The notes under the pieces are model-generated. The model was not told the DNA's origin, made no database searches, and was given only the letters and a program-made list of their open reading frames with translations. Positions 24,141 to 43,029 of a stretch of 43,430 nt of DNA are shown piece after piece (within the stretch, counting starts at the first letter, position 1; every line of letters starts with the position of its first letter). The stretch is from a virus. The DNA lies in IMG/VR virus record IMGVR_UViG_3300046791_000569, positions 1 to 43,430 of that record. One strand, 5' to 3'. The position numbers and the translations under genes are program-made.

Positions 24141-26077
24141 TGGCCACCCTGCGCCTCACCTGCATCCTCGACAACGGCACGCTGTCGACGGAGCAGGCCA
24201 CGCCGCCGCTGCGCCTGGTCAAAGGCGAGGACGCCGAGGTGGTCATCACCGTCCTCGACAACGACCGCACGGCGCACGACCTCGCCGGCGACACGATCGT
24301 GTTCGCATTCCGCGAGAGGTCGGCGGCGACGGGCGTGCAGCGCGAGGCCACGCCCAACTCACCATCGACGTTGGGTATCACCCGCGTCACGCTCGTCCCC
24401 GGTGACACCAACGGGATCGCGGTCAAGGCAGGCGAGTACGTCTTCGATGTCTGGCTCTGTGACGACGATGGGCTGTGGTCGCAGATCTACCCACTGACCC
24501 AGCTGACCATCGCGGACGCTGCCTACGTCTCGGGCAGCGACGTCACCAACCCAACGCCCAGCGTACCGCTCGCGCAGGGTCCGCAGGGCGAGCAGGGCAT
24601 CCAGGGCGAGCCCGGCGCAGATGGCGTCGACGGAACGAACGGCAGCAATGGAACCAACGGCACGAACGGAGCCGACGGCGCCGGCGTCACCTCCAGCGGC
24701 TTCGCGCTCCCCTCGGCGAGCGCGACCGTTCGCACCATCTACGCCAACACCGCCGGCAACGACTCGACGGGGAACGGCACGATCGGCAACCCGTACCGCA
24801 CGCCCGAAAAGGCGCTGGCCGCCGCGCTGATCTTCTCGCGCCTCTACCGCACCGTCGTTGACCTGACCGACCTCGGCACCCACGACGTCACCAACCTCTA
24901 TCAGTTGCCGACGTTCGACGGCGACTTCGACGTGCGCAAAGTGGACGGCGCCTCGTCGTGGCGTGACTACTTCGTCGGCGGGCTGTCGATCGTGGCGACG
25001 CCGACGACGGAACGCACCTTCACGTCGGGTGAGATCTCGTCGCAGGTCGGCGCGGCCACCACCGGCATCACCACGATCACGCACACCCAGCCGGGCATCG
25101 TCGCTGATTCCCTCGTCGGAAAGCTCTGCTGGGGCGCCGCAGCGAGCAACGGCCTCGTGCCCATGCTCGGCGCCATCACCGCCAACGACGAGACGACCTT
25201 CGAGATCTCCTGGTCCTCGACGGGCAACGGCGCCATGACCTACCCGATCAAGATCGGCGTGCCGTCGGCGAACCTGCGCAACGTCCTCGGCAATCCGGTC
25301 TTCGCGCTCGGGCCGCAGCGCTGCGGGATCGTGTTCGCCGGGATCGACTTCACGACCTACTCGCCGACCTACGCCGCGATCGGCTCGATCTCCTGGTCAC
25401 CGACGCAGCCGCCCTCGGAAACCGTCTACATGGTGGGCTGCCGTCACACCGGAGTGAACCTGTCCAACATGCGGACGTTCGCCGAGTACGGCTGCGTCGT
25501 CACCGCCGGTGTGCATATCACGCTCGCGATCGACAAGTCGATCCACGGGCAGAGCTCCTACTCGGCGCTCACGTCGTTCGGCTACAACGAGGCGACTGGC
25601 AAGCAGGGCGCGGGTGTCTGGCGCAACTGCGTAATCGACACCTGCGCGCCGCACGGCAGCTGGACGAAGGGACGGCAGGGGCTCTCGATGGGCGCTCTGT
25701 TCCTCGATCGCTGCGCCTTCCGCTCATCGGGCAGCGTCGAGACGGCGATCTTCATCTACGCCAGCCAGGGCGACGTCACGAACTGCACGATCGACGACAG
25801 CCCCGGCAGCGCGCTCAACGTGCAGGGCTTCGGGCGCGCGGTGGTGCAGCACGTCCACGGGAGCGCCAACGGCGGGCCGATCGTGGCGCGCTTCCACGGT
25901 CAGATCAACGTCGTGGACTCGAGCGTCGACGTCGCAGGAACCGGTGGCAACGACCTGCAGGTGGGCCTGCACGGGACGCCGATCTCATGGGCGACGTTCC
26001 GCGCGCTCAACCCGCAGGTCAAGAACGACTTCGGCTCGAGCGGCGACGGCTCGGTCATCTTCGAGGAGACGCCATGA
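24140..26077 (+). CDS. tailspike/adhesin with collagen-like stem and beta-helix
   Basis: 645 residues. Residues 1-140 look like a virion-binding beta domain (similar domains precede collagen stems in phages). Residues 147-182 are 12 Gly-X-Y triplets ([13 protein letters not shown], then [10 protein letters not shown]), a triple-helical trimeric stem. Residues ~195-610 fit a right-handed parallel beta-helix of the pectate-lyase kind, with [15 protein letters not shown] after it and repeated short strands ([18 protein letters not shown]). Likely the host-recognition or depolymerising spike. I cannot point to catalytic residues. Confidence 0.72.
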
Positions 26078-26535
26078 TGTGGACCGGCCCCTTTATCCTC
26101 TGCGTCGACGACGACCCCGCCACCCGCGACGCCTTCGCGAGCTGGGCCGAGGTGCTCGCCTTGCCCGCCGAGACGTTCGCCACCGCCGAGAGCGCCGCCT
26201 CCCGCCTCGGTCGCGGCGACGTCGGGGTCTTGCTCACCGACTCGATGCGGCGCGCCGGCATGAGCGGGCTGCAGTTGCTCGAGCACGCGCGGGTCGTCTC
26301 GCCCGAGACGCTGCTGGTGTCGGTGAGCGGGCGCGTCGACGACGAGTATCAGGCGGCGGCGGCGAAGCTGGCGCACCACGTCGTCGGCAAGCCGTGGCAG
26401 TCGTCGCAGATGGAGCAGATCATTCGGAGCGGGCCGAGCCTCGCGGACCTCGCCTATTCGGCGGCGGTGCGGGTGTCGCGCGAGATCGACAAGTCGATCG
26501 AGAGGATGGCCCATGGCCGCGAACGGAGAGCGTGA
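26074..26535 (+). CDS. stand-alone response-regulator receiver domain
   Basis: 153 residues; ATG 26074 overlaps the spike stop as ATGA (a second ATG follows at once). Residues 7-108 carry the receiver signature. The acidic pair is D12/D13 in LCVDDDP, the phospho-acceptor Asp56 is in LLTDSMRRAGMSG, Ser84 sits at the Thr/Ser switch in VSVSGR, and K106-P107 are in VGKPW. All catalytic positions are kept. The ~40-residue C terminus is helical with no DNA-binding or enzymatic output. A CheY-like protein in a phage late operon is unusual; it could capture phosphoryl groups from a host kinase or compete with a host regulator. That is inference. Confidence 0.85.
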   Translation: MMWTGPFILCVDDDPATRDAFASWAEVLALPAETFATAESAASRLGRGDVGVLLTDSMRRAGMSGLQLLEHARVVSPETLLVSVSGRVDDEYQAAAAKLAHHVVGKPWQSSQMEQIIRSGPSLADLAYSAAVRVSREIDKSIERMAHGRERRA

Positions 26536-27076
26536 CGCCACCGTCGAGACGCTGATCGAGATCGGCGAGAGACTGGAAGCCGCGCGCCAGCATTCCACGC
26601 TGGTCAACCGGACCCTCGTGGTGACCAACGAAAGCCTCAAGAAGATCCTCCCGGAACTCGAGCGCGTCGCCCGCGGGCGCGAGGAGCGCAACCTCATCAT
26701 CGACACGGAGAGCAACCGCTCCCTGACGATGGCGAGTCAGCACCTCGCCGAGGCGAAGGCGACCTACGAGAAGACGATTGCCTTGGCGCGCGACGAGCTG
26801 CGCAGCGCGGTCGAGCGCGTCGAGGCGACTGTCACCGAGCACCGGCGCGAGGACAGTGCCGTCCACCGCCTGCCACCGCACGAGCCCGAGGACGGCGACG
26901 CGCTCAAGACCGCCAAGCTCATCCTCGGCTTGCCGTGGTGGCGCTTTCTCTCGATCCTCGTCGCTGCCGTCGTGCTACTCGGCGCTTCGGGTGTGTTCGG
27001 CGCGTGGTGGCGCGACCACTTCGGCGGCACCACGTCGTCGGTGAAGGTCGAGACGCACGAGAGGCACGCGCCGTGA
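26513..27076 (+). CDS. coiled-coil protein with one C-terminal membrane helix
   Basis: 187 residues, overlapping the receiver gene by 23 bases. Residues 10-112 are a near-continuous coiled coil with heptads. Residues ~143-165 (WRFLSILVAAVVLLGASGVF) form a single membrane helix flanked by Trp pairs, followed by a short polar tail. It could be an i-spanin-like or pinholin-like lysis factor, or a membrane receptor coupled to the receiver protein next door. Topology (long soluble part first, then the anchor) is tail-anchored, atypical for i-spanins. Confidence 0.6.
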   Translation: MAANGERDATVETLIEIGERLEAARQHSTLVNRTLVVTNESLKKILPELERVARGREERNLIIDTESNRSLTMASQHLAEAKATYEKTIALARDELRSAVERVEATVTEHRREDSAVHRLPPHEPEDGDALKTAKLILGLPWWRFLSILVAAVVLLGASGVFGAWWRDHFGGTTSSVKVETHERHAP

Positions 27077-27178
27077 GCGACCGCGCGGCGGGAGGCCGCC
27101 AGCGCGGCCGACTTCCTCGACGAGCGCGACGTGCGAGCGCTGCTGAAATCCGAGTCGCCGCGAGAGTGAATGCTGGGC

Positions 27179-27367
27179 TTAGGAGCCTGACGGCTCTGGT
27201 GTGCGGTTCGATTCCGCAGCCCTCGCGGTCGCTCGCTCTTTCGCCTCGCGATCAACCCTCCACTTCGTCAGCACGGAGCGATTGCGACAGCAGGGCAGAC
27301 AGAACGTGGCGGCGGGCCGGCGACGCTCAACCAACCTTCCGCATCCCCAGCAAGTACGACGGTCCAC
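27179..27367 (-). CDS. small zinc-ribbon protein
   Basis: 62 residues on the leftward strand from GTG 27367, with GAG-rich sequence just upstream. CWGCGR near 6-11 and CLPCCR near 23-28 make a two-knuckle zinc ribbon; the rest is basic and helical (KWRVDREAKERATARAAE). Composition and motif support a real gene; no homolog is recalled. It sits in a gap between two rightward lysis-region genes and is part of the leftward cargo of this region. Confidence 0.5.
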   Translation of the reverse strand: MDRRTCWGCGRLVERRRPAATFCLPCCRNRSVLTKWRVDREAKERATARAAESNRTPEPSGS

Positions 27368-27378
27368 GCCCTCACTCT

Positions 27379-27398
27379 GCGCCGTCCATCGACGGCGC
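27379..27398. other. perfect 8-bp hairpin and adjacent CAAGTCAC repeats
   Basis: GCGCCGTC / GACGGCGC with loop CATC, directly upstream of the leftward zinc-ribbon gene. Two copies of CAAGTCAC follow at about 27401 and 27415. No U tract is present. It may be an operator for the leftward gene or a structured leader of the rightward one. The rest of 27076-27450 shows the 30-codon in-frame extension after 27076 and nothing else clear. Confidence 0.3.
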
Positions 27399-27449
27399 GC
27401 AAGTCACCTCACAGCAAGTCACAGAACGCCACAAGTTAGGAGTTTGCCC

Positions 27450-28172
27450 ATGCGCCCCACCCGCATCATCCCGCTCTGCCTGCTCCTCCTCGGCCTCGCG
27501 CTGATCGCCCGCGCGCACGCCGCACCCGACGCTGCGTTCTACGACGCGAGTATGCAGCACGCCGTCACCGTGGCGCCGCTGCAGGTGGTCACCGCGCCGG
27601 CCGCTGCACCCGTCGAGGTGCCGATCCAGGAAGCGGTCGCGCTCACCCTGACCCTCTTCGCCTTCTGCCTGCGCCGCTTCTCGCCACACGTCGCGTGGCT
27701 GCATACCGGCACCGGGCTCGCGCTCATCTCGGCGCTGACCATGATCCTCACCGCCGTCGCAGGCGCCATCGCTCACCAGGGCGTCGGCGTGCGCGTGGTG
27801 CTGGTGGCGCTCACGTCGGCGATGACGGCGGCGCTCGCGCAGGCCAACACGTCGCCGGAGGGAACGGGCGCGCTCGCCGTGCCGCCGCCGTTGCCCGACG
27901 CGGACGTCACCGCGCGCCAGTCCATCGACGGTGCCTCGGTCAGGTCGCTGCTGCCGTTGCTGTTCGTGGCGTCGCTGCTCGTCGGTGGGTGCGCGGCCCA
28001 GCTCCGCCGCGCCGTGGCCGCGCACAACGTCGCCGACCAGCACGCGGCGACCACGATCAAGGACGCGGTGAAGGACGCGCGCGCTTGCATGCCGGGGGCG
28101 GCGCCGTGTGTCGAGGCGGCGCTCAAGGTCATCGAGCAGCAGGCGGGCGCGGTGCCGGCGGTGATGCCCTAG
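27450..28172 (+). CDS. multi-span membrane protein with internal lipobox (lysis candidate)
   Basis: 240 residues; AGGAG eight bases before the ATG. Residues 1-25 are a Sec-like signal (LLLLGLALIARAHA-A). Two to three further hydrophobic spans lie at ~61-75, 88-108 and 115-132, a holin-like count. After a Pro-rich linker (~143-152) a second signal-like stretch LLPLLFVASLLVGGC ends in a lipobox with Cys181, then a soluble helix. It looks like a holin-type and an Rz1/o-spanin-type module in one frame. Fusion or shared coding is inference. Its stop shares CTAG with the convergent gene. Confidence 0.55.
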   Translation: MRPTRIIPLCLLLLGLALIARAHAAPDAAFYDASMQHAVTVAPLQVVTAPAAAPVEVPIQEAVALTLTLFAFCLRRFSPHVAWLHTGTGLALISALTMILTAVAGAIAHQGVGVRVVLVALTSAMTAALAQANTSPEGTGALAVPPPLPDADVTARQSIDGASVRSLLPLLFVASLLVGGCAAQLRRAVAAHNVADQHAATTIKDAVKDARACMPGAAPCVEAALKVIEQQAGAVPAVMP

Positions 28173-28735
28173 CCGTCGACGGCGATGAGGCAAGTACGCC
28201 ATCCTCGTCGGCCGTCCTCGCCAACCCTGAGTCCGGGGTACGGGTAACTCCGCCGAAATCGCTCACCACCATCGAGAACGTGCTGCGTCCCTGTCTGCCG
28301 CACGATCGTCCAAGCCCCGAACAATCGCGGCCCCGTCGATGGCTTGTCGTCGAAGATGCTCACGCGGTCGCCAATCTTCAGGTGAAACGCCCATGCGTTG
28401 TAACCGCTCCGGCCGGGCGTCAGCGTGCCGACGTGCCGCGCACAGCGAGTGTAGTTCGTCGGCGTCCGCAGCGTGATACCGCAGACGTAGCAGAGTGACG
28501 GCGCCACGGGTTGCCGCCGCAGCATCTCGGCGTACCGACGAGCGAACGTGTCGATGTCGGGAGACCGACCGACGTCCAGCCATGACAGCGTTGACGGTTC
28601 CTCGACGTACCCCGCCGCTTTTAGCCGCTCGATCTCCGCCCGCGCGCTCGCCGCCTCGTGCTGGTTCGCCGTCGGGTGGTCGGCCATGTCGCGCAGCTTC
28701 TCGAGGCGCGTGCGGGTGTCGCGAAGGTTGCGCAC
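28169..28735 (-). CDS. zinc-knuckle protein, last gene of leftward cassette
   Basis: 188 residues from GTG 28735, whose first base is the last base-paired overlap of the upstream TAG (TAGTG). The N-terminal half is helical (RDTRTRLEKLRDMAD). CYVCGI and a following CARHV near 100-120 give a zinc-binding pattern, then a beta-rich end (KIGDRVSIFDDKP, GAWTIVRQTG) that may be a small SH3/KOW-like barrel. Function not recognised. It is the distal gene of a four-gene leftward run; its stop shares CTAG with the rightward membrane protein. Confidence 0.6.
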   Translation of the reverse strand: MRNLRDTRTRLEKLRDMADHPTANQHEAASARAEIERLKAAGYVEEPSTLSWLDVGRSPDIDTFARRYAEMLRRQPVAPSLCYVCGITLRTPTNYTRCARHVGTLTPGRSGYNAWAFHLKIGDRVSIFDDKPSTGPRLFGAWTIVRQTGTQHVLDGGERFRRSYPYPGLRVGEDGRRGWRTCLIAVDG

Positions 28736-29052
28736 TAGAACACGTCCCGTCGCCGCCGTCGGGCCGGGGCCGGGCGTTTCGCGCAGTCCTCGCACGGCTC
28801 ACCACACCGTGGACACCGTGCATCCGCCATCGGGGTCGCTGCGAGGTCGCCCTGCACATCCCGCCGCATGTACTCCCGCAGCCTCTCGCTCCACCCGGGG
28901 CCGTGCTTCTCGCGGTAGGCGTCGAGGAGCCACACCGGGACGCGGATCTGAGTGGTGGGCTCGGCGGAGAGGGAGCCGGGCGGGCGGCCGATGCGCTTGC
29001 GGGTCAATGGTCGAACCCGCAGAGGCCAGTGCGGCAACGCTCCCGCCGACAT
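28735..29052 (-). CDS. ribbon-helix-helix-like protein with zinc knuckle
   Basis: 105 residues; GGAG ten bases before the ATG. After a Lys/Arg-rich lead, TTQIRVPVWLLDAYREKHG followed by WSERLREYMRR has the strand-helix-helix rhythm of Arc/CopG proteins and small phage relatives. The C-terminal CPRCGEPCEDC is a tight zinc-binding cluster. Probably DNA- or RNA-binding and possibly the regulator of this cassette. That role is inferred. Confidence 0.6.
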   Translation of the reverse strand: MSAGALPHWPLRVRPLTRKRIGRPPGSLSAEPTTQIRVPVWLLDAYREKHGPGWSERLREYMRRDVQGDLAATPMADARCPRCGEPCEDCAKRPAPARRRRRDVF

Positions 29053-29146
29053 TGGTCCATCTCCGCACCCTTGAGCCGATGCGCAGCGAGCGGATCAAGC
29101 AGCGCCCGCGCGAGCCAACCGACCCATGACCACTGCGTTGGGCCGC

Positions 29147-29449
29147 TCATCGAATCGACTTGGCGACTTCGTGTTGGTGGCCGGCGGCGTCAAGGTCGCG
29201 CGTCGTGATCTTGTACTGCTCGTCCTCGGGCAGGTTCAGTAGTAGGTGAACCAACTCCGATAGCGCGATCCGGCGCAAGCACTCGCAACCGCCCGGTTCG
29301 GTCACCTCGACGTAGTACGCGTCGTGCTCGTCGACGATGCGCAGTTTATGGCCGTGCTCCGTCGCTCCGGGCGGGAGAGCGATCTCGAACGGCGTCGCGA
29401 CCAGCTTCGTGACCACGGGCCGCATCTCCAGCCACGGCGCGTTGCTCAC
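29147..29449 (-). CDS. small hypothetical protein of leftward cassette
   Basis: 100 residues from GTG 29449, overlapping the upstream gene as GTGA. Beta strands in the first 60 residues (KLVATPFEIALPPG, HKLRIVDEHDAYYVEVTEPG), one CxC pair, then a Leu-rich helix (ELVHLLLNLPEDEQ). I recognise no family. The 94 bases between it and the next gene hold only the latter's ribosome-binding site. Confidence 0.55.
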   Translation of the reverse strand: MSNAPWLEMRPVVTKLVATPFEIALPPGATEHGHKLRIVDEHDAYYVEVTEPGGCECLRRIALSELVHLLLNLPEDEQYKITTRDLDAAGHQHEVAKSIR

Positions 29450-29970
29450 TTCGCTCCTCGCAGGACCGCCGCAGCCTGCCGGAACAGCCCCGCCGCTCGC
29501 GTTGCCTCCACTGAACGGAGGATCCCAACCCGTCGAGCCTCCTGGTCCAGTTGATGGGCGTGCGCCTCAAGCTTCTCGTCGATGGCGCTCGGCACGGGTT
29601 CGCCGTTGTCGATCCGCTCCTGCTTCAGCTTGTCGAGCTGCTCGCGCACGTCGGGCGACAGGAGATAGTCGGGCTTCGCCTTAACGCGGGCGCTGGCTTC
29701 GTCGAGGACGTGCTGCAGTGAGACGGGACCGGGACTCCCCCACGACATGCGCGCGTGCTCCTCGCAGAGGTTCCACGGCGGCGGGTACGCCCGCTCCGGG
29801 TGCATGACGTGCGTCGCTGGCTTGCCGCAGAGGACGACTGGTTTCTCCGCCTTCGTTTTGGTCTTGTGCTGACGTGACCTGACCGTGAAGTCGCAGGTCG
29901 GCGCCGTGCCTTCTCGGTGCCCGCCGGGGCAGTCATCCCCGACGAAGTGCGTCCGTCCGTTGTCGATCAT
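29446..29970 (-). CDS. zinc-binding protein, first gene of leftward cassette
   Basis: 174 residues. ATG 29970 is preferred to a GTG at 30009 because GGGAGG lies seven bases before it. The N half has Cys/His spacing (CPGGHREG, CDFTVRSR, CGKPATHVMHP, CEEHARM), reminiscent of the metal scaffold in treble-clef/HNH-like folds but without a clear catalytic His-Asn-His set. The C half is helical (REQLDKLKQERIDNG). It is the promoter-proximal gene of a cassette inserted among lysis genes. A nuclease-like or ubiquitin-like-binder role is possible but not shown. Confidence 0.6.
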   Translation of the reverse strand: MIDNGRTHFVGDDCPGGHREGTAPTCDFTVRSRQHKTKTKAEKPVVLCGKPATHVMHPERAYPPPWNLCEEHARMSWGSPGPVSLQHVLDEASARVKAKPDYLLSPDVREQLDKLKQERIDNGEPVPSAIDEKLEAHAHQLDQEARRVGILRSVEATRAAGLFRQAAAVLRGAK

Positions 29971-30011
29971 GATCGCCCCTCCCTTCGCGCCGCGGCGCAG
30001 TTCCAGCACGG

Positions 30012-30041
30012 AATCTAGTACCCGCCCGACTTTCCTGTCAA
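30012..30041 (-). promoter_or_regulatory. sigma70-like promoter of the leftward cassette
   Basis: Read leftward: a perfect TTGACA (30036-30041), an 18-base spacer, and TAGATT (30012-30017; 4/6), with CTAGAT at 17 bases as an alternative. It leaves a ~35-base leader before ATG 29970. It is the best -35 in the window outside the immunity region, and it lies between two divergent genes. It would allow expression from the repressed prophage. Confidence 0.6.
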
Positions 30042-30062
30042 CAAGAAACTCGAGGTATCTTC

Positions 30063-30464
30063 ATGCCCACCGACCCAATCCGCGACCTCCTCGACATCGC
30101 CACCAAGATCCGCGACATCGCCGCGGATCACGACGGCATCACCTGGGAGAGCGCCTTCTCGCACCCCGCCGTCGTGGGCCTGCGCGATGACCTGCTCGCG
30201 CTCCTCGGCGCGGCCGACACCGCCAGCGCCATGATCGCGGGCGTCGAGACGCTGAACGCCGAGTGGGACCGGATGCACGCCGTCGTGCCGCTCGACGTCG
30301 CGGCGTGCGGCGTGGTCGCGGCGGCGGCACGGTCGCTGTCCTACGCGGCGGTCGCGAAGGCGGGCGAACCGCTTCAACTGTTCGTGTTCACGATGCGCGA
30401 GCTGCTGCCGTGGCTCGAGCGGGCGCTGCAACTAGGCGTGGCGCTCGTCGCGGCGGTGGTGTGA
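30063..30464 (+). CDS. hypothetical protein, holin-like context
   Basis: 133 residues; GAGG eight bases before the ATG. All-helical with Ala-rich segments (CGVVAAAARSLSYAAVAKAG near 79-98) and a hydrophobic C terminus (LQLGVALVAAVV) that could dip into membrane. It ends one base before the endolysin gene. A small holin or antiholin is possible, but hydrophobicity is only moderate. Confidence 0.5.
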   Translation: MPTDPIRDLLDIATKIRDIAADHDGITWESAFSHPAVVGLRDDLLALLGAADTASAMIAGVETLNAEWDRMHAVVPLDVAACGVVAAAARSLSYAAVAKAGEPLQLFVFTMRELLPWLERALQLGVALVAAVV

Positions 30465-30465
30465 C

Positions 30466-31203
30466 GTGACCAGCACCATCCGGCTCGGCGACGGCGGCGC
30501 GGCCGTCGCATCGCTCCACCAGCACCTGCTCGAGGCGGGCCTGCTGCCGCCCGAGGCCGGCGAAGAGGCGCGCGCCGGCCACTTCGGCGCCGCGACGCTC
30601 GGCGCGGTCAAGACGTTCCAGGTCAAGCACGCGCTCGCCCCCGACGGCATTGTCGGCGCGCGGACCTGGGCGGCGCTCCTCGGCATCAGCGAGGCGGCCG
30701 CGGCCATGCCCGAGCCGGACTACGCCGCGATGTCACCGCTGATGAACGCGGCGGTGCGCCTGGCCAGCATCGAGCTCCACAAGGGCGTCGTCGAGATCCC
30801 GCCGGGCAGCAACCGCGGCCCCGAGGTCGAGCAGTACCAGCTCGGCCGCTGGCGCGATGGAAGCTACCTCGTCGGCCTCGCCTGGTGCGCGCGCTTCGTT
30901 CTGTGGTGTGTCGAGGGCGCGGCGATGGCGTTCGGCGTCAAGGCCCCCACGGCTGGCGGCGGCGACCTCGCAGGCGCGACGAAGTGGCTGGCCTGGGCCA
31001 AGGCGACCGGGCGGCTGATCGCCGCGCCGCGGCCCGGCTGCGTCGCCCTGGTGCGCGTTGAGGGGCACGGCCACGTGTGGCTGGTCACTCGCGTCGAGGG
31101 CGACCGGCACGCCACGATCGAGGGCAACAGCGGCAACCGCGTCGCGGGGCGCTGGCGGCCGAACGCCGGCGTCGAGGGGCAGCACTTCATCAGCCTCGAC
31201 TAG
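30466..31203 (+). CDS. endolysin: peptidoglycan-binding plus CHAP domain
   Basis: 245 residues from GTG 30466. Residues ~3-72 are a PG_binding_1 domain (LGDGGAAVASLHQHL, then GHFGAATLGAVKTFQ, PDGIVGARTWAALLG). Residues ~95-245 are CHAP-like: catalytic Cys141 in LAWCARFV, His203 in GHGHVWLVTRVEG, and a conserved IEGNSG near 218-223. It cuts peptide cross-links of host murein at lysis. No signal peptide is seen, so release needs a holin. Its stop shares CTAG with a small convergent gene. Confidence 0.9.
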   Translation: MTSTIRLGDGGAAVASLHQHLLEAGLLPPEAGEEARAGHFGAATLGAVKTFQVKHALAPDGIVGARTWAALLGISEAAAAMPEPDYAAMSPLMNAAVRLASIELHKGVVEIPPGSNRGPEVEQYQLGRWRDGSYLVGLAWCARFVLWCVEGAAMAFGVKAPTAGGGDLAGATKWLAWAKATGRLIAAPRPGCVALVRVEGHGHVWLVTRVEGDRHATIEGNSGNRVAGRWRPNAGVEGQHFISLD

Positions 31204-31449: not shown

Positions 31450-31535
31450 CACTGATTTTTCGCTTCTACCGTCGCTGACTACAGGAATCGCACTCTAGAG
31501 GCCGAGGGTTCGATCCCCTTCAGCTCCACTGATTT
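31450..31535. repeat. CACTGATTT direct repeats flanking attP core
   Basis: Identical CACTGATTT at 31450-31458 and 31527-31535, 77 bases apart, bracket the tRNA-like core. The second copy begins in the last base of the acceptor arm. Such repeats could be integrase arm or core-binding sites. The stretch 31368-31450 shows no gene. Confidence 0.4.
31496..31530 (+). other. attP: attP core: 3' end of a tRNA/tmRNA-like gene
   Basis: A complete T arm is present: stem GAGGG/CCCTT (31504-31508 and 31516-31520) around the seven-base loop TTCGATC. A seven-base acceptor strand CAGCTCC (31521-31527) and discriminator A follow. The 5' part of a tRNA is missing. The acceptor end CAGCTCCA is that of many ssrA (tmRNA) genes, so tmRNA is the best guess for the host target. 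It is 90 bases from the integrase stop. Tyrosine integrases commonly use tRNA/tmRNA 3' ends and carry such a copy to restore the gene. Confidence 0.72.
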
Positions 31536-31593: not shown

Positions 31594-31623
31594 TGACGCC
31601 GCCTGTTCCCGCAGGCGGCGTCA
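31594..31623 (-). terminator. strong stem-loop at integrase stop
   Basis: A perfect 12-bp stem, TGACGCCGCCTG / CAGGCGGCGTCA, with a six-base loop. The integrase TGA is inside the stem. Pyrimidines including CTCTTT follow on the rightward side, so it may end transcription in both directions, isolating attP between the endolysin side and integrase. Confidence 0.6.
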
Positions 31624-32673
31624 CCTCTTTCCACCGTCGAGCACCCTCCACGCACGCTGCGCCGCAGCCCCCGCGGCCGCGCCGGGCGCCGCGTAGCTCT
31701 GCTCCGTCGTGCTGACCGACTCGTGGCCGAGCGCTGCCGCCACCTGGTGGCCGCTCTGCCCTGCTGCCAGCGCCAGGGTCGCGTGCAGGCCCCGCATGCC
31801 GTGCGCCGTCACCACCGGCACCTTGGCCAGCCGGCAGATCGTCTGCACGCACTCCCTCGGCCAGTCCCTCCAGTGCGCCCCGAACAGCAGCGCCTGGTGG
31901 TCCTGCCCGAGGTCGAGCTCGGCCTGCAGCTTCCGCTTGGCCACCAGCTCGAGCAGCAACGGCTGCAGGAGCTCCGGCACCTCGAGCGTCCGCCGCCCCG
32001 CCTCCGTCTTGGAGTCGGGGATCCACAGCCGCCGGCCGCCATCGTCCACGTCCCGCACGACGCGGCTCACCACCTCGCCGGCGCGCATCCCAAGCAGCAT
32101 GGTGCACAGCGCCGCCGTGGCGCCCTCGTTGCCGCCCCGCGCGAGCTCGAGCGCCCTGGCCAGCCAGGTGCGCGCCTCGTCGATCCGGAGCTGCGGCTTG
32201 CCGTGCCGCCGCCGGCCGATGCCGGTCGTGGTGTCGAGCGGGTTGCGGGCCAGCCACCGCTGCAGGACGCACCAGTTGAGGAACGTCTTGGCCTCGGCGA
32301 GCATGTTCCGGTGGCTGTCGACGGCGTAGGACTCGGATGCCTTCCCGTAGAGCGTCTTGCAGCGCGCCACCGTGAGGCTGGTGAGCGCCTGGTCGACGTC
32401 ATCAAAGAAGGCCTCGAGCCGCCGGCGTGTCGTGGTGACCGACGTCGGGCGGTTGCCCTTCGTCGTCAGGTGCTGCTCGTAGCTGATGAGGCTGGTGGCC
32501 ACGGTGCGGCCGCGCGCCTCTACTTCGCGCCGCGCCCGGCGGATGCACTCCTCGGCTTCTTCCCTCGTCGGGAAGGACTCAGAAGCCGACTCACCGCCTG
32601 CTCCACGTGAGACGACGCGCCATCGGTTGCCGTGTCGGTAAGGTCCATAGATCCCTCCTGTTTCTCGTCGCAT
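31621..32673 (-). CDS. int: tyrosine recombinase integrase
   Basis: 350 residues; AGGAG six bases before ATG 32673. N-terminal ~60 residues resemble an AP2-like arm-binding domain (YGPYRHGNRWRVVSRG), then a core-binding domain (~62-150). The catalytic domain has Arg197 (LLGMRAGEV), Lys222 (DSKTEAG), His291-x-x-Arg294 (AHGMRGLHATLA), His317 (LGHESV) and the nucleophile Tyr327 (TTEQSYA). It joins attP to the host attB, here probably a tmRNA or tRNA 3' end. The C-terminal Ala-rich tail is short. Full catalytic set suggests it is active. Confidence 0.93.
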   Translation of the reverse strand: MRRETGGIYGPYRHGNRWRVVSRGAGGESASESFPTREEAEECIRRARREVEARGRTVATSLISYEQHLTTKGNRPTSVTTTRRRLEAFFDDVDQALTSLTVARCKTLYGKASESYAVDSHRNMLAEAKTFLNWCVLQRWLARNPLDTTTGIGRRRHGKPQLRIDEARTWLARALELARGGNEGATAALCTMLLGMRAGEVVSRVVRDVDDGGRRLWIPDSKTEAGRRTLEVPELLQPLLLELVAKRKLQAELDLGQDHQALLFGAHWRDWPRECVQTICRLAKVPVVTAHGMRGLHATLALAAGQSGHQVAAALGHESVSTTEQSYAAPGAAAGAAAQRAWRVLDGGKR

Positions 32674-32807: not shown

Positions 32808-33721
32808 CTACTTCGCCAGCGACGCCGCGGCCTCACGCAGACGCTCTTTGTCGTCGCGCTCCCGCTTCAGCACATCATTCCAGCGGCGGCGATTCAGGAC
32901 GCCGGTGAACGCCTCGCGGATGAGCTGTTGCAGGACGTCAGGCGGAAGCGCGTCCACCTCCCACGATGACGCTCCGTGCTCCCGTGCGTACGCCTCGTAG
33001 CGGCTGTCGCTGGTCTTCGCCGGGTTGGGCGGCGGCTGGTATTGCCGGATCTGCGCCATCGTGAGCGCCAACTTCTGCACGTCGAGCCGCTCCACTCCGA
33101 ATTCCTTCAGGCGATCGCGGATGTCGCGGACCATGTCCTCGCCCGAGGGGTCGTGGTCGCCGAGTAGAACAAGACCGGCTCGCGCTCGCGCTTCTCGGGA
33201 TCGTAGCTGTCGCTCTCGGCCTGGTTGCTGCGCTCGATGAAGCGGCGCGAGGCCTCGTACATGGCCGACGCCGAGGAGTAGCCCTTGTTGACCATGAGCG
33301 TCGCGTGGAACTCCGCCGCGAGCGGCTCGAGGACGCCGGCGAGGGCCTGCTTCTCCACCCACAGCTCGACGTAGCTGTCTTGGTCATCCCAGCGCGGTAG
33401 CCGGTAGCTGCGGATCGAGCTGTCGACGAAGTCGCGGACGTCCTCGTAGTCGCGCCACACCGTCGGCTCGCGCCCACGGTCCTCGATCGCGTCCCAGTCG
33501 ATCATGCCAGCGTAGCGTGCGTCGGCGAGCAGTCCGGTCAGGTTCTTGTAGGACGTCGGCGTGTTGGGGATCAGGTCGCGGGCGACGAACTGGTAGTAGA
33601 GCTGCCTCGCCGTCAGGCGAAGGCCCTGGTTTCCGTACGTCGTGACGATCTCCTGCATCTGCTGGATACGCTCGAGCGACGCGGGCTTGAAGTTGGTGGA
33701 CCGGAACGCAACCGCGCTCAT
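32808..33721 (-). pseudogene. frameshifted Spo11/TopoVI A-like toprim protein
   Basis: Two frames read as one ~304-residue protein if one base is restored at about 33164. The first frame gives residues 1-186 (ATG 33721, ATGA overlap) and the second the rest to TAG 32808. The N part has a winged-helix-like domain with TARQLYYQFVARDL, where Tyr42/Tyr43 sit like the catalytic Tyr of topoisomerase VI A/Spo11. Then come WVEKQALAGV (toprim Glu123) and, after the break, LGDHDPSGED (toprim DxD). No B-subunit is nearby, as in 'Mini-A' proteins of mobile elements. Either a contig error or an inactivated gene. Confidence 0.8.
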
Positions 33722-34176
33722 GACGTCGCCTCCCGTCGCGCCAGCTCGTGCCCGGGCGGGGCGAAGGCGTCGAACAGCTCATTCATCGAGGTGAGGATCT
33801 CCGCCTCGCGGTACATCAGCTCCGGCTCGAGCTCGCCGAGCTGGACCACCGCGCCGCGCTTCCCCTGGCCCATCGCGTAGCCGAACTCCCACGAGGCGGA
33901 GCGGCCTGACGGCAGCACCAGCACGCACGCCTCGCAGGCCTTCAGCGCGTTGATGTCGAAGGCATAGCCGGCCTGGGCGATCGGGTGCTGCAGCGCCGCC
34001 CGGTACTCCGCCGGCGACCAGTTCTGCCAGTTCGGATCGATGTCCCGCCAGTTGAAGCCGTGGCCGCCCGGTTCCGGGTTCCGGAAGTCGTACACCTCGT
34101 GGCCGCACCGGCGAAGCGCCAGCACGATCCCGGGCTGCAGTAGGTTGCGCCACGACGACGCGACGTAGACGCGCAT
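33718..34176 (-). CDS. nucleoside 2-deoxyribosyltransferase-like protein
   Basis: 152 residues; the ATG shares a base with the ParB-like stop and its own stop overlaps the toprim start as ATGA. Starts with the Rossmann-like strand MRVYVASSWRN and ends its core with LVLPSGRSASWEFGYAMGQGK, where Ser93 and Glu97 match the active-site S..E.G of nucleoside deoxyribosyltransferases. An Asp (near 74) also fits. A conserved phage family of this type has 'YDFR.P' as here. It may salvage or edit nucleotides, or cleave a nucleotide-like signal. Confidence 0.7.
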   Translation of the reverse strand: MRVYVASSWRNLLQPGIVLALRRCGHEVYDFRNPEPGGHGFNWRDIDPNWQNWSPAEYRAALQHPIAQAGYAFDINALKACEACVLVLPSGRSASWEFGYAMGQGKRGAVVQLGELEPELMYREAEILTSMNELFDAFAPPGHELARREATS

Positions 34177-36038
34177 CAGGCGCACGCCGAGCAGAGGTCG
34201 GGCTCCGACCAGCTGCAGGCGTCTCCGTTGTCGTCGGTGCAGGCGTGGGCCTCGTCGCAGCCGCACACGCGACACGTCGGGATGGCGGCGGGCTTCTTCT
34301 CGGCCGCCTCGCGCTCGGCCTTCTTGGAGCGCTCGACGTGCGGGGCGTCGAGGGGCTTGCCCCTCTTGCCCTCGGTGTTGGTGCAGCCCGCGCCGACCTC
34401 GGCCCGGCAGACCGCGCACGAGACGGCCAGGGCGGGGTGCTGCGGTGGTGCGGGCGGCGGCTCCGTCTTCGCGTGATCAAGGCACGCGTTGAGGTCGACG
34501 CCGTAGAGCTCGCAGAGCGCGTCGAACGCTGGGCGGTTGTGGGCCTCGGGGTTCGGCATGTTCGGGATGCGGCGATCGATCGCCATCTCGAACACGAGCC
34601 CGCGCAGCTGCGCTTCGGTCATCGACGCCATCCACTCGCGCACCTTCTCGACGAGCTTCTCACCCCAGAGGTCCTCGCGGTCGAAGCCGCGCCGCTCGAG
34701 CGCCGCGTCGCCGCCGTCCATCTCGATGTACTCCTCGACCAGCAGCTGCAGGAAGGTCCGATCGGTGGGCGCCGCCTCGGCCTTCGCCACCAGCTCGGCG
34801 ACCGCGAGCTGGATGCCGCGGCGGCCGGCCTCGAACGCCTCCTGCTCCTTCTTCCTCACCGGCGACACCGCCTGCCGCTGCTCCTTCTCCTTCTTCGGAT
34901 CATGCCCCGCCGCCTTGAGCAGCCGGTTGACGTCCTTCTTCGGCAACAGATCCACCACCTCCTCGGTGTGCGGGTTCTTGGCGACGACGATGGGTGTGTC
35001 CTTGAGCTGCTTGCCGATGAGCTGACGGAGCGTCCTGCCCTTCGGGTCCTGGTGGTTCCGCGCGTCGAGGTCCTGGTAGCCGACCGGGGCGCTGTACCTG
35101 TCCTTGAACGTCTCCTTCGCTTCCTTCGGCGACAGCACCCTGTGGCCCTTCGACTGCGCCTCGTCGACCTTCTTCTTCCAGCCCGCCTCCTTCTTCTGCT
35201 CGAAGCAGCCGGGATCGGTGCAGAGGTCGTCGTGCTCAACCTCGGCGAAGAGCTCGCCCTGGTTGCCGGTCCTCTTTGGGCAGGCGCCGCACGCGCCCGC
35301 CGCCGGCACCAGCGTAGCGTCGCTGGCGTCGAAGGGCGCGTCCTTGAGGACGAGCATGCAGTGCTGCTGGACGTAGTGGCACGCCTGGTCGGTGCCCCAT
35401 GGCTGGTCCTTGCCGTAGCCCTTGGCGATCGCGGCCGCGGCCTGCTCCTGCAGCTTCGCGTTCGAGACGCGAGCCAGGAACACGGCGGTGCCGATCGTCA
35501 TGCGCCCGTCGAGGAACGCCTTCCGGCCGACCGGCCCGAGCGCGCAGAGCTTGAGGCGCGAGTAGATGTGCCCCTTCGACTTGCCGACTTCGGCCACCAG
35601 GTCGTCGACCGTGTGGCCGTGCTTCTCCATCAGCTGCCCGTAGGCGTCAGCCTCCTCGAGCGGGTGGACGTCGGCGCGCTGCGCGTTCTCGGTGAGCTGC
35701 GCGACGATCACCTGGTCGTCGGTCAGATCGCGGATGGTCGCGGGCACCGTCTTGAGGCCGGCGGCGCTCGCTGCGCGCCACCGGCGCTCGCCGCACACGA
35801 GCTCGTGCTCGCCCTTCTTCTTCGGGTGCGGGCGGAGCAGCAGCGCCTGCAGGATGCCCTGCTCCTTCACGCTGGCGGTCAGCTCGGCGAGCTCGCCCGT
35901 GCTGATGGTCTTGCGCGGGTTCGTCGGCGAGGCGTGGATGCGCTTGAGATCCACCTCCTCGAGCCGGGCGAGCAGCGCCGGCCTCTTCGCCGCCGACTTC
36001 GGCTCGGCGCTCTTCTTCGCGGGCTTGGTCTTGGACAT
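34176..36038 (-). CDS. ParB-like nucleotide-binding/DNA-binding protein
   Basis: 620 residues; ATG 36038 is preferred to an earlier start because AAGGAGG sits six bases upstream. Residues ~28-130 are a ParB N-terminal domain (SPTNPRK, CGERRWRAASAAGL, ENAQRADVHPLEEA). A helix-turn-helix follows (~143-165, VGKSKGHIYSRLKL). The long middle has a Cys pair cluster near 270-305. The end has two zinc clusters (CAVCRAEVGAGC and CRVCGCDEAHAC, then CSWSEPDLCSAC). Such large ParB-like proteins occur in many phage early operons and seem to bind DNA, not partition it; no ParA is nearby. Confidence 0.83.
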   Translation of the reverse strand: MSKTKPAKKSAEPKSAAKRPALLARLEEVDLKRIHASPTNPRKTISTGELAELTASVKEQGILQALLLRPHPKKKGEHELVCGERRWRAASAAGLKTVPATIRDLTDDQVIVAQLTENAQRADVHPLEEADAYGQLMEKHGHTVDDLVAEVGKSKGHIYSRLKLCALGPVGRKAFLDGRMTIGTAVFLARVSNAKLQEQAAAAIAKGYGKDQPWGTDQACHYVQQHCMLVLKDAPFDASDATLVPAAGACGACPKRTGNQGELFAEVEHDDLCTDPGCFEQKKEAGWKKKVDEAQSKGHRVLSPKEAKETFKDRYSAPVGYQDLDARNHQDPKGRTLRQLIGKQLKDTPIVVAKNPHTEEVVDLLPKKDVNRLLKAAGHDPKKEKEQRQAVSPVRKKEQEAFEAGRRGIQLAVAELVAKAEAAPTDRTFLQLLVEEYIEMDGGDAALERRGFDREDLWGEKLVEKVREWMASMTEAQLRGLVFEMAIDRRIPNMPNPEAHNRPAFDALCELYGVDLNACLDHAKTEPPPAPPQHPALAVSCAVCRAEVGAGCTNTEGKRGKPLDAPHVERSKKAEREAAEKKPAAIPTCRVCGCDEAHACTDDNGDACSWSEPDLCSACA

Positions 36039-36155
36039 GTCGATCCTCCTTGAGGGGCCGGCCGACGAGTCGATCGTCGACGCCAGGGGAATGAGCCCAT
36101 GGGGCGCGCCACCGGCGCCGGCCAACAAAAGGGCGACGTCGTCGCCCTGGTGCTG

Positions 36156-39158: not shown

Positions 39159-40016
39159 TCACGACGCGACGGCGGCGCAGGCGCGGATGTCTTCGAGCGC
39201 CCGCTCCGTCGTGGCGAAGAAGTGCGGCACGCGGCCGGTCGAGGCGCGGTAGATCATCGAGCCGGCGCGATGCGGTCCGTACTCCGCCTCGAGCGCCGCA
39301 CCCGCCTCGCCCGCGAAACGGATCGCCCACCCCGCGCGACAGTGCGTCGTCTCACAGGTGTGCCACTGCGACATGTCGAGTCGACCCGTGCCGGCCTCCA
39401 CCACGTCGAGAATCTTCCGATCGAGGTGCGGCACCACCGGGACCTCGGGGTGGCGTTCTCGGTAGCGCGCTGCGCGATCAGCGGCGCGAGCGGCCTGCTC
39501 CTGCGGAGTGGTCGCGCGCTGGTACGGCACCGCTGCGGGATCGACAGGGCTCACCATCGGGACGTTCCGAGCGTCGGCCAGGTTCGCGTCGGCCAGGTTC
39601 GCGTCGGCCAGGTTCGCGCCGGCCAGGTTCGCGCCGGCCAGGTTCGCGTCGGCCAGGTTCGCGTCGGCCAGGTACGCGTCGGCCAGGTTCGCGCGGGCCA
39701 GGTTCGCGTCGGCCAGGTTCGCGTCGGCCAGGTACGCGTCGGCCAGGTTCGCGTCGGCCAGGTTCGCGCCGGCCAGGTTCGCGTCGGCCAGGTACGCGTC
39801 GGCCAGGTTCGCGTCGGCCAGGTTCGCGCCGGCCAGGTTCGCGTCGGCCAGGTTCGCGTCGGCCAGGTTCGCGCGGGCCAGGTTCGCGTCGGCCAGGTTC
39901 GCGCGGGTGCCGATCGCCTGCACCACGGCCGCTCGCAGCGGCCGCGGTTCATCGTCGCTGACGTCGCAGGAGTAAATCACGACGCCGGTGAAACGGTGCT
40001 TGATCTCGATCTTCAT
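39159..40016 (-). CDS. pentapeptide-repeat protein with conserved C-terminal domain
   Basis: 285 residues; AGGAG eight bases before the ATG. Residues ~39-149 are 22 tandem A(N/Y)LA(D/G/R) pentapeptides, a right-handed square beta-helix whose shape mimics DNA in Qnr/MfpA-type gyrase-protecting proteins. The C-terminal ~100 residues contain a Cys/His cluster ([15 protein letters not shown]) and a helical end, a combination seen in other phage pentapeptide proteins. It may guard gyrase/topoisomerase or inhibit a DNA-binding host enzyme. Target not known. Next to annealing genes in the early operon. Confidence 0.82.
39571..39900. repeat. 22 tandem 15-bp units (pentapeptide array)
   Basis: Twenty-two back-to-back 15-base units close to GCGTCGGCCAGGTTC, varying mainly at units reading GCGCC, GCGCG or GGTAC. 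They encode the pentapeptides of the leftward gene at 39159. The near identity at DNA level suggests recent expansion and allows unit gain or loss by slippage. Confidence 0.9.
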
Positions 40017-40025
40017 GGTGGTCTC

Positions 40026-40382
40026 CTAGGAAATCCGTTTGATGGTCACGCCGTCGACGAGCAGCAGGTCGCCGACGCGCAGGCGCTTGACGGCGGTCTC
40101 CACGTCTGCCCCGCAGCTGCGCAGGAAGTCGGGCAGCCACTTGACGACACCGCCGCGCACGTCTTCCTTCGTCAGCAGCACCTGCCGACGACTGCGCAGC
40201 TTCGTCGCGCGCTGGTCGAGGAAGTGGTCCCAGATCGGGCGTTCGTCTTCGTCCTGCCCGAGGTAGCTGGTGCAGGCCTCCAGCTCCTCGAGTTCCGACC
40301 ACCCGTTCTCGCGCGCCACCTGGCGCAGCAGCCAGAGTGTGCGGTTGACCTCGACGGTGACGGCGCCTCGGACGGCGGTCAC
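40026..40382 (-). CDS. hypothetical early protein
   Basis: 118 residues from GTG 40382, overlapping the upstream gene as GTGA. Helical first half (EVNRTLWLLRQVARENGWSE) and a beta-rich end (RVGDLLLVDGVTIKRIS). I see no domain I can name. It is coupled to the operon and is ten bases upstream of the pentapeptide gene. Confidence 0.55.
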   Translation of the reverse strand: MTAVRGAVTVEVNRTLWLLRQVARENGWSELEELEACTSYLGQDEDERPIWDHFLDQRATKLRSRRQVLLTKEDVRGGVVKWLPDFLRSCGADVETAVKRLRVGDLLLVDGVTIKRIS

Positions 40383-40573
40383 GCCCGCACCTCACAGCGC
40401 GAGGTGCAGCAGCCGATGCAGGTCCGCATCGACATCTCAACCGCGCCGTTCTCGTCGCGCCATGGCTTGTCGGGCCTCGAGATCGCGTGCCACCTTTCAA
40501 CGCTGACGATGCGGACACCGTTGACGAAGAGGCGACGGCAGACGCAGTTCGAACAGCGCTCGGCCGTGGTCAC
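40379..40573 (-). CDS. small zinc-knuckle early protein
   Basis: 64 residues from GTG 40573, with GTGA overlaps on both sides. CSNCVCR near 7-13 and CIGCCTSRC near 51-60 give a multi-Cys zinc site. The middle resembles a beta hairpin (VNGVRIVSVERWHAI). Function unknown; likely a small nucleic-acid or protein-binding early factor. Confidence 0.55.
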   Translation of the reverse strand: MTTAERCSNCVCRRLFVNGVRIVSVERWHAISRPDKPWRDENGAVEMSMRTCIGCCTSRCEVRA

Positions 40574-40989: not shown

Positions 40990-41415
40990 CTACGACAGGA
41001 ACTTCAATCGTTCCTCAAGGATGGCTTGAAGAAGATCGCGCGCGGCATCATCGGCGCGCAGAACATAGAGCAGATCCTCGACCTGCTTACGGCTCTTGAA
41101 CGCCTCGACCCGTGGACGCAGATCCTCAACCCGCGCCTTGACCCGCTGCATCTTCGCGGCGACAGGGCGCAGTTGATCGACGTCGGCACCGACTGCGACG
41201 AGTCCCTTGCGGACCGTGTCGAGGGCGCCGGGCTTGAAGTGCGGCGTGCGGACGTACGTGCTCACCATCTGCTGGGACACGTTGGCCGCCTTAGAGAACT
41301 GCGCCTGACTCACGCCTACCTGCTCAAGCAGCTCGGCAAGTCGTTGCCCTTCGTGGTTGTCGGCCATGTCCCTGACGGTAGCGGGCGACTCTCCCATCGT
41401 TCCAGTTGTAAGCAC
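40990..41415 (-). CDS. putative phage repressor (XRE-like helix-turn-helix)
   Basis: 141 residues from GTG 41415, chosen because GGGAGG lies seven bases upstream; ATG 41397 and 41367 are later options. Residues ~25-75 make a helix-turn-helix of the XRE/Cro kind (LAELLEQVGVSQAQFSKAANVSQ, read in parts, then QMVSTYVRT). The C-terminal half is coiled-coil-like (RVEDLRPRVEAFKSRKQ) and probably mediates dimers. No RecA-cleavable LexA-type protease domain is present. Location between leftward and rightward promoters matches cI of lambda. Confidence 0.75.
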   Translation of the reverse strand: MLTTGTMGESPATVRDMADNHEGQRLAELLEQVGVSQAQFSKAANVSQQMVSTYVRTPHFKPGALDTVRKGLVAVGADVDQLRPVAAKMQRVKARVEDLRPRVEAFKSRKQVEDLLYVLRADDAARDLLQAILEERLKFLS

Positions 41416-41432: not shown

Positions 41433-41454
41433 CAATCAGTTGACAGGTTGATTG
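41433..41454 (+). promoter_or_regulatory. palindromic operator over rightward promoter
   Basis: Inverted repeat CAATCA ... TGATTG, ten bases apart, at 41433-41438 and 41449-41454. It brackets and overlaps the TTGACA of the rightward promoter, the classic place for a repressor site. The central six-base half-sites are perfect. Confidence 0.55.
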
Positions 41455-42445: not shown

Positions 42446-42522
42446 CGCCGCACCCCCGCGCCTCGATGGGCGCTCGTCCAGTCTCCCGCGTTTCACCCGA
42501 CTTCCGCAAGGAGCTGACCGCG

Positions 42523-43029
42523 ATGGCGTCCAAGAGCGTCACGTCCATCAACATGCGTCCGGCACCACCCCCAAGTGAACCCCAAGCCGGTGGGGGTGCA
42601 CTTGGGGAGCAAGCGCCTGCTCTTGTCGATCCCGTCGCTGACACCGATGCGGCAAAGGCCGAGCGCATCATCGCCGCCTTCTACGAGGGTGGTCGCGAGG
42701 CGGTGCAGTTGTGGGGCGGCGTCGAGGCTCTGGCACGACTCTGGGGCGCCGACCTCGGCGATCTCTCCCGGCGGCTCGGTCGCAAGCCGCACAAGGGCAC
42801 CACCTGCTACGCGTTCGGCGACTTCTGGGCCCTCGCCTGCACCGAGGAGGCAGCGGCCCGGGCCTTCCTCTCGAAGCTGTCCGACGCGCTCGGCTACGAG
42901 CCGCCGAAGAAGAAGCGTCGCCAGAAGACACCCGAGGAGACGATCGCTGCGCTCAAGAAGCAGCTGAAGCTCTTCGGCCCGGCGGGTGAGCAGGCGCTCG
43001 AGCGCGCCGGCGTCGAGGACGACGGATGA
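42523..43029 (+). CDS. hypothetical early/late-border protein
   Basis: 168 residues; AAGGAG ten bases before ATG 42523 decides this start over a longer one that would read into the lipoprotein signal. N-terminal ~40 residues are Pro/Gly-rich and likely flexible. Residues ~45-120 are helical (AAFYEGGREAVQLWGGVEAL, WGADLGDLSRRLGRK). The basic end KKKRRQKTPEETIAALKKQ is coiled-coil-like. First of a coupled rightward run that leads towards the terminase genes across the contig ends. Function unknown. Confidence 0.6.
   Translation: MASKSVTSINMRPAPPPSEPQAGGGALGEQAPALVDPVADTDAAKAERIIAAFYEGGREAVQLWGGVEALARLWGADLGDLSRRLGRKPHKGTTCYAFGDFWALACTEEAAARAFLSKLSDALGYEPPKKKRRQKTPEETIAALKKQLKLFGPAGEQALERAGVEDDG

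Follow-up and report, generated by a model that had tools for sequence, protein, structure and literature searches.

Phage and locus organization

The window analyzed here is the whole of IMG/VR record IMGVR_UViG_3300046791_000569, 43,430 bp in length, and its gene content points to a myovirus-like phage with a temperate lifestyle. Genes for the portal, the tape measure protein, RecT, and an exonuclease were recognized, a Mu-like gpT head protein was matched, and the match to baseplate J was weak. Rightward genes are the late genes, up to the endolysin, and leftward genes are the early genes plus the integrase; the integrase, the HTH regulators, and an attP-like tRNA-Ala 3' end together indicate that the phage is temperate (Table 1). 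The rightward genes also encode a 574-amino-acid (aa) protein 5' of the portal, in the position expected for the large terminase and with no PHROG or Pfam match (1225 to 2949), and, among the late/lysis genes, a protein with a response-regulator receiver domain (25987 to 26535; Pfam PF00072, E = 9e-10). Leftward genes include those for a ParB-like protein (34176 to 36128) that ends in a phage zinc-binding domain (PF24623) and a topoisomerase-like protein (33107 to 33721) whose homology to relatives fades near the C-terminal end, just before a conserved DHDPSG motif, through either a natural frameshift or a sequencing error. A leftward pentapeptide-repeat protein (39159 to 40016) adjoins RecT; over its C-terminal part it shares 61% identity with a protein of viral contig L137.

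Within the lysis block, ahead of the endolysin, an unbroken 1.8-kb block of minus-strand genes runs against the late/lysis direction between two plus-strand late genes. A preliminary description had placed here a leftward cassette of four tightly coupled genes opposing the late operon. The cassette is real, with genes A, B, D, and E scoring best in the minus frame, and the coupling is confirmed by overlaps of 4 nucleotides (nt) between A and B (GTGA) and 1 nt between D and E (TAGTG, comprising the D stop and the E start). Four genes are well supported, but a possible fifth, the 48-aa open reading frame (ORF) C, lies between B and D; if real, it would overlap B (ATGA) and the TTG start of D (TTGA) by 4 nt each. 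ATG 29052 offers D an alternative start with a better ribosome site, giving 105 aa. The promoter-proximal start of the cassette is ATG 29970, and a GTG at 30009 lies upstream of the expected transcription start.

At the distal end, CTAG at 28169 to 28172 is common to the stop codons of E and of the convergent late gene, and a scan of 27000 to 31200 found no terminator-like site. Since no terminator was found and the two stop codons overlap, the cassette is not insulated. Nothing marks it as a recent import, because its GC content is near that of the phage (67.8% versus 68.8%) and 4-nt overlaps are also frequent in the phage's early operon, which likewise runs leftward. The late genes abut the cassette flush, as in a long-settled arrangement.

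Table 1. Positions of the cassette, its promoter, and associated phage features in the 43,430-bp window
Feature	Position	Strand	Description
Cassette gene block	28169..29970	-	Four well-supported genes and a possible fifth
Promoter	30012..30041	-	Sigma-70-like, TTGACA-18-TAGATT; predicted transcription start near 30005
Gene A	29446..29970	-	174 aa; ATG start, GGGAGGGG ribosome site
Gene B	29147..29449	-	100 aa; GTG start, GAGGAG ribosome site; contains CEC; no match
Possible gene C	29004..29150	-	48 aa; C-x4-C-x4-C; weak coding score
Gene D	28735..29007	-	90 aa; TTG 29007 start; RHH-like segment TTQIRVPVWLLDAYREKHGPGWSERLREYMRR and CPRCGEPCEDC
Gene E	28169..28735	-	188 aa; GTG start; putative helical hairpin, C-x2-C-x12-C-x2-H, SH3-like strands
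Convergent late gene	27450..28172	+	Signal/TM and lipobox-like LLVGGC segments; no family match; by inspection alone, spanin-like
Divergent late gene	30063..30464	+	133 aa; no function assigned
Endolysin	30466..31203	+	PG_binding_1 (E = 1.1e-10) and CHAP (E = 4.1e-8)
attP-like core	about 31489..31528	+	tRNA-Ala gene 3' end; 35/40 identical to Acidobacteriota tRNA-Ala
Tyrosine integrase	31621..32673	-	Phage_integrase (E = 2.5e-8)
HTH regulator	40990..41415		Faces a divergent 70-aa ORF

The cassette promoter

The perfect TTGACA noted earlier ahead of the cassette was borne out: the predicted promoter is the sole site with at least 10 of 12 matching positions on both strands of the window, where 0.15 would be expected, and it is the one promoter-like site of the local scan (0.1 expected). 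Over both strands, the window contains just two copies of TTGACA, one here and one at 41440 between the divergent regulators, and both lie within the 9-mer GTTGACAGG (41439 to 41447, plus strand; 30042 to 30034, minus strand). The switch copy of this 9-mer forms the center of a perfect palindrome, CAATCA-N10-TGATTG. A search of the window allowing up to 2 mismatches found no second such palindrome; the cassette promoter does not carry one, and no inverted repeat of at least 8 nt was found at it. The absence of the palindrome fits a cassette promoter that lies outside the control of the switch regulator. Alternatively, the common 9-mer could put the cassette promoter in the lytic regulon of the phage. 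Because three common flanking bases would arise by chance with a probability of a few per cent, we treat the 9-mer as a lead only.

A host-like promoter without an operator palindrome would also suit the main rival to the interpretation that we favor below, namely that the cassette is an early-lytic operon for host takeover or anti-defence, whose promoter would fire at once on infection and whose small zinc proteins would bind host factors or proteins of defence. Other leftward genes likewise encode small cysteine-rich orphans (42493 to 42792, 4.0% cysteine; 40379 to 40573, a 64-aa early protein with CSNC and CIGC whose 10.9% cysteine is the maximum in the window), and the early leftward operon has the same habit of 4-nt overlaps. 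The cassette, however, lies far from that operon, in the late/lysis block close to attP, a usual setting for lysogenic accessory genes, and late transcription would run against it. We regard an early takeover role as a possibility to be held tentatively, with the odds clearly against it.

Cassette proteins

Coding potential was scored with a model trained on other genes of the same phage, comparing six frames. The minus frame came top for A (0.07), B (0.15), D (-0.12), and E (-0.01), and by a hair's breadth for C (-0.21), which, given this poor score, is listed as possible only. Late genes 26513, 27450, and 30063 and the endolysin scored 0.24 to 0.32, above every cassette gene. Two of the proteins had been described as clear zinc-knuckle proteins; the CCHC consensus C-x2-C-x4-H-x4-C is absent from all five, although the underlying cysteine enrichment is real, and by the standard of this phage every one of them is rich in cysteine. 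Together A, B, D, and E contain 14 cysteines in 552 residues, compared with 103 in 10,097 residues of the other genes tested in the window (Mann-Whitney P = 0.003), and five CxxC/H motifs were observed against 0.75 in shuffled sequences (P = 0.0006). These motifs bear on the suggestion that the cassette is no functional unit and consists partly of spurious ORFs in a GC-rich stretch. The low codon scores are what such ORFs would give, but none of the genes scores higher in any of the other five frames, and the ribosome sites at A and B, the overlaps, the promoter, and the cysteine motifs all argue for genuine genes, making this explanation very improbable.

The N terminus of A carries the motif THFVGDDCPGGH, followed by C48 and C69-x2-H72, for an overall pattern of C...C...C...CxxH, and its C-terminal part looks helical. 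The corresponding patterns are C-x2-C-x3-C-x2-C in D and C-x2-C-x12-C-x2-H in E. D had earlier been called an RHH-like protein with a zinc cluster; its RHH identity is weakly supported by a match to an antitoxin family, PHROG 4692, at an E value of 0.02 to 0.025, which is not significant at the size of the library. Pfam gave no match for this BrnA-like segment. A single-sequence structure model of D (pLDDT 62) has just two confident helices and yielded no Foldseek match, and that of E (pLDDT 50) shows a helical hairpin at the N terminus along with strands that hint at an SH3-like barrel; both are too weak to draw conclusions from. The cassette proteins probably bind zinc and, judging from their sequences, act through binding to nucleic acid or protein; the cysteine patterns, the RHH-like segment, and the features of the E model suggest that DNA or RNA may be among the targets.

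The PHROG 4692 match raises the further idea of a BrnT/BrnA-type toxin-antitoxin module with D as antitoxin. In genome L135, the member of this family starts within the end of an ORF that we take to be BrnT-like, with a 4-nt overlap. No Pfam or NCBIfam toxin model matched A, B, C, or E, however, BrnA has no zinc segment, and the match itself falls short of significance, so we give this idea hardly any credence.

The motif HFVGDDCPGGH of A recurs in four viral contigs (L002/L004, L003/L006, L005, and L007), near the N terminus of proteins that are otherwise unrelated and in the general form [TD]H[FY]VGDDCPGGH. It is perhaps a mobile metal-binding mini-domain.

Search for relatives

Apart from this motif, the cassette stands alone in everything searched. 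B, C, D, and E had no homologues in Pfam, PHROGs, NCBIfam, PADLOC, the PDB, phages, plasmids, the IMG/VR scans, or 832 genomes, and A had nothing in the same databases and genomes beyond its N-terminal motif, which was also its sole match in the viral contig scans that found none for B, D, or E. Phages and plasmids gave no match at either the DNA or the protein level, nor did a genome scan with A, and sequence searches of the PDB returned chance matches only. No cassette protein matched a PADLOC or NCBIfam model at E ≤ 10 or a Pfam model above the cut-offs, in keeping with the first impression that the genes correspond to no known system. A concatenated A-to-E query recovered all five proteins from the window itself as positive control and matched nothing in 832 Acidobacteriota, Actinomycetota, and Myxococcota genomes, where at most three to seven first-look candidates per genome were scored and a weak relative may be missed.

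Gene neighborhoods gave the same picture. None of the other cassette genes occurs in the viral records that carry the motif of A, and no synteny with the cassette region was found through the topoisomerase (80 viral and 39 genome loci) or the integrase (5 loci). Contig L137 has an integrase, a pentapeptide protein, and a deoxyribosyltransferase in common with the phage, in a different order, and its record does not contain the cassette. No close relative of the phage was found in the databases searched.

Position in the prophage and proposed role

The attP-like core is 35/40 identical to two Acidobacteriota tRNA-Ala genes and 34/40 to an actinobacterial one; with close matches in both Acidobacteriota and Actinomycetota, it does not single out a host phylum. 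A tmRNA origin of attP was considered and dropped, as the genes matched in other genomes encode tRNA-Ala. Since the core matches a tRNA-Ala 3' end, what the contig represents is the free phage with its ends joined. Upon integration, the integrase would come to lie at one end of the prophage and the cassette about 1.5 kb in from the other, antisense to the lytic genes. Such a place, near a prophage end and on the strand opposite the lytic genes, is a usual one for lysogenically expressed accessory operons, and published transcriptomes of prophages offer examples. The Salmonella prophage ST64B has an accessory gene, STMMW_20121, with its own promoter and antisense to the lytic genes (PMC7067206), and lysogenically expressed operons lie near the prophage ends of the mycobacteriophages Sbash, where two are leftward (PMC6426596), and Cluster N (PMC9262239).

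On balance, we think it probable that the cassette serves its temperate phage as a moron-type accessory operon, constitutively expressed in the lysogen. The moron-like part of the earlier characterization therefore stands, supported by the cassette's own predicted promoter, its strand opposite to the late genes, the temperate phage, and the distance of about 1.5 kb from the attP-like core; its defence or anti-defence part found no PADLOC, NCBIfam, or Pfam match. The missing terminator lowers the fit to a moron without excluding it, because a terminator of its own is common for a moron and not obligatory. The DNA itself shows the block of genes, their overlaps, the match to a promoter, the enrichment in cysteine, the temperate setting, and the proximity to the attP-like core, whereas expression in the lysogen, binding of zinc and of nucleic acid, and an effect on the host are what we infer. 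We speculate that transcription by the host RNA polymerase in a lysogen would begin near 30005, at a promoter without the switch palindrome, and yield one leftward mRNA for four to five translationally coupled small proteins. A would contribute two zinc-binding segments, D an RHH-like and a zinc segment, and E a coiled coil, a zinc ribbon, and an SH3-like barrel. With the lytic genes silent, these proteins could then act on the host or change how susceptible it is to other phages. Once the phage grows lytically, late transcription antisense to the operon would switch it down.

Prophage defence or superinfection exclusion by the cassette proteins acting jointly would be a special case of this accessory operon, and the confidence placed in the two overlaps. 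Its position and arrangement resemble those of the defence operons that Cluster N phages and Sbash express during lysogeny, and translational coupling of several genes suggests joint action. No PADLOC, Pfam, or NCBIfam defence model was matched, however, and no enzyme-like or membrane protein was recognized among the products, so that a defence role seems doubtful. More specifically, A, B, D, and E, with or without C, might form a multi-protein zinc-based prophage system of undescribed families that protects the lysogen or silences incoming DNA; we consider this unlikely.

The kind of locus is already known, and the protein families are not described in the libraries searched. If the accessory-operon reading is right, the cassette extends a known class by one lysogen-expressed operon, with proteins absent from those libraries. 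Loci of this sort have proved productive for finding new defence systems, and at 1.8 kb this one is small enough to be expressed whole. The cassette alone changes no picture.

Comparison with known systems

Several known systems resemble parts of the cassette. BrnT/BrnA modules would have in common with it the RHH-like segment of D, if the weak match holds; the cassette has no BrnT partner and D has its additional C-x2-C-x3-C-x2-C segment. The phage proteins with [TD]H[FY]VGDDCPGGH carry the same 12-residue motif as the start of A, joined there to unrelated domains and in records without the other cassette genes. No sequence relation was found to the Sbash and Cluster N operons (PMC6426596, PMC9262239, PMC7542560), and the cassette differs from these in sitting within the lysis block, 5' of the endolysin. 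STMMW_20121 of ST64B is a single gene with no known sequence relation to the four to five coupled genes of the cassette; like the cassette, it has no assigned function, its own promoter, and an orientation antisense to the lytic genes (PMC7067206).
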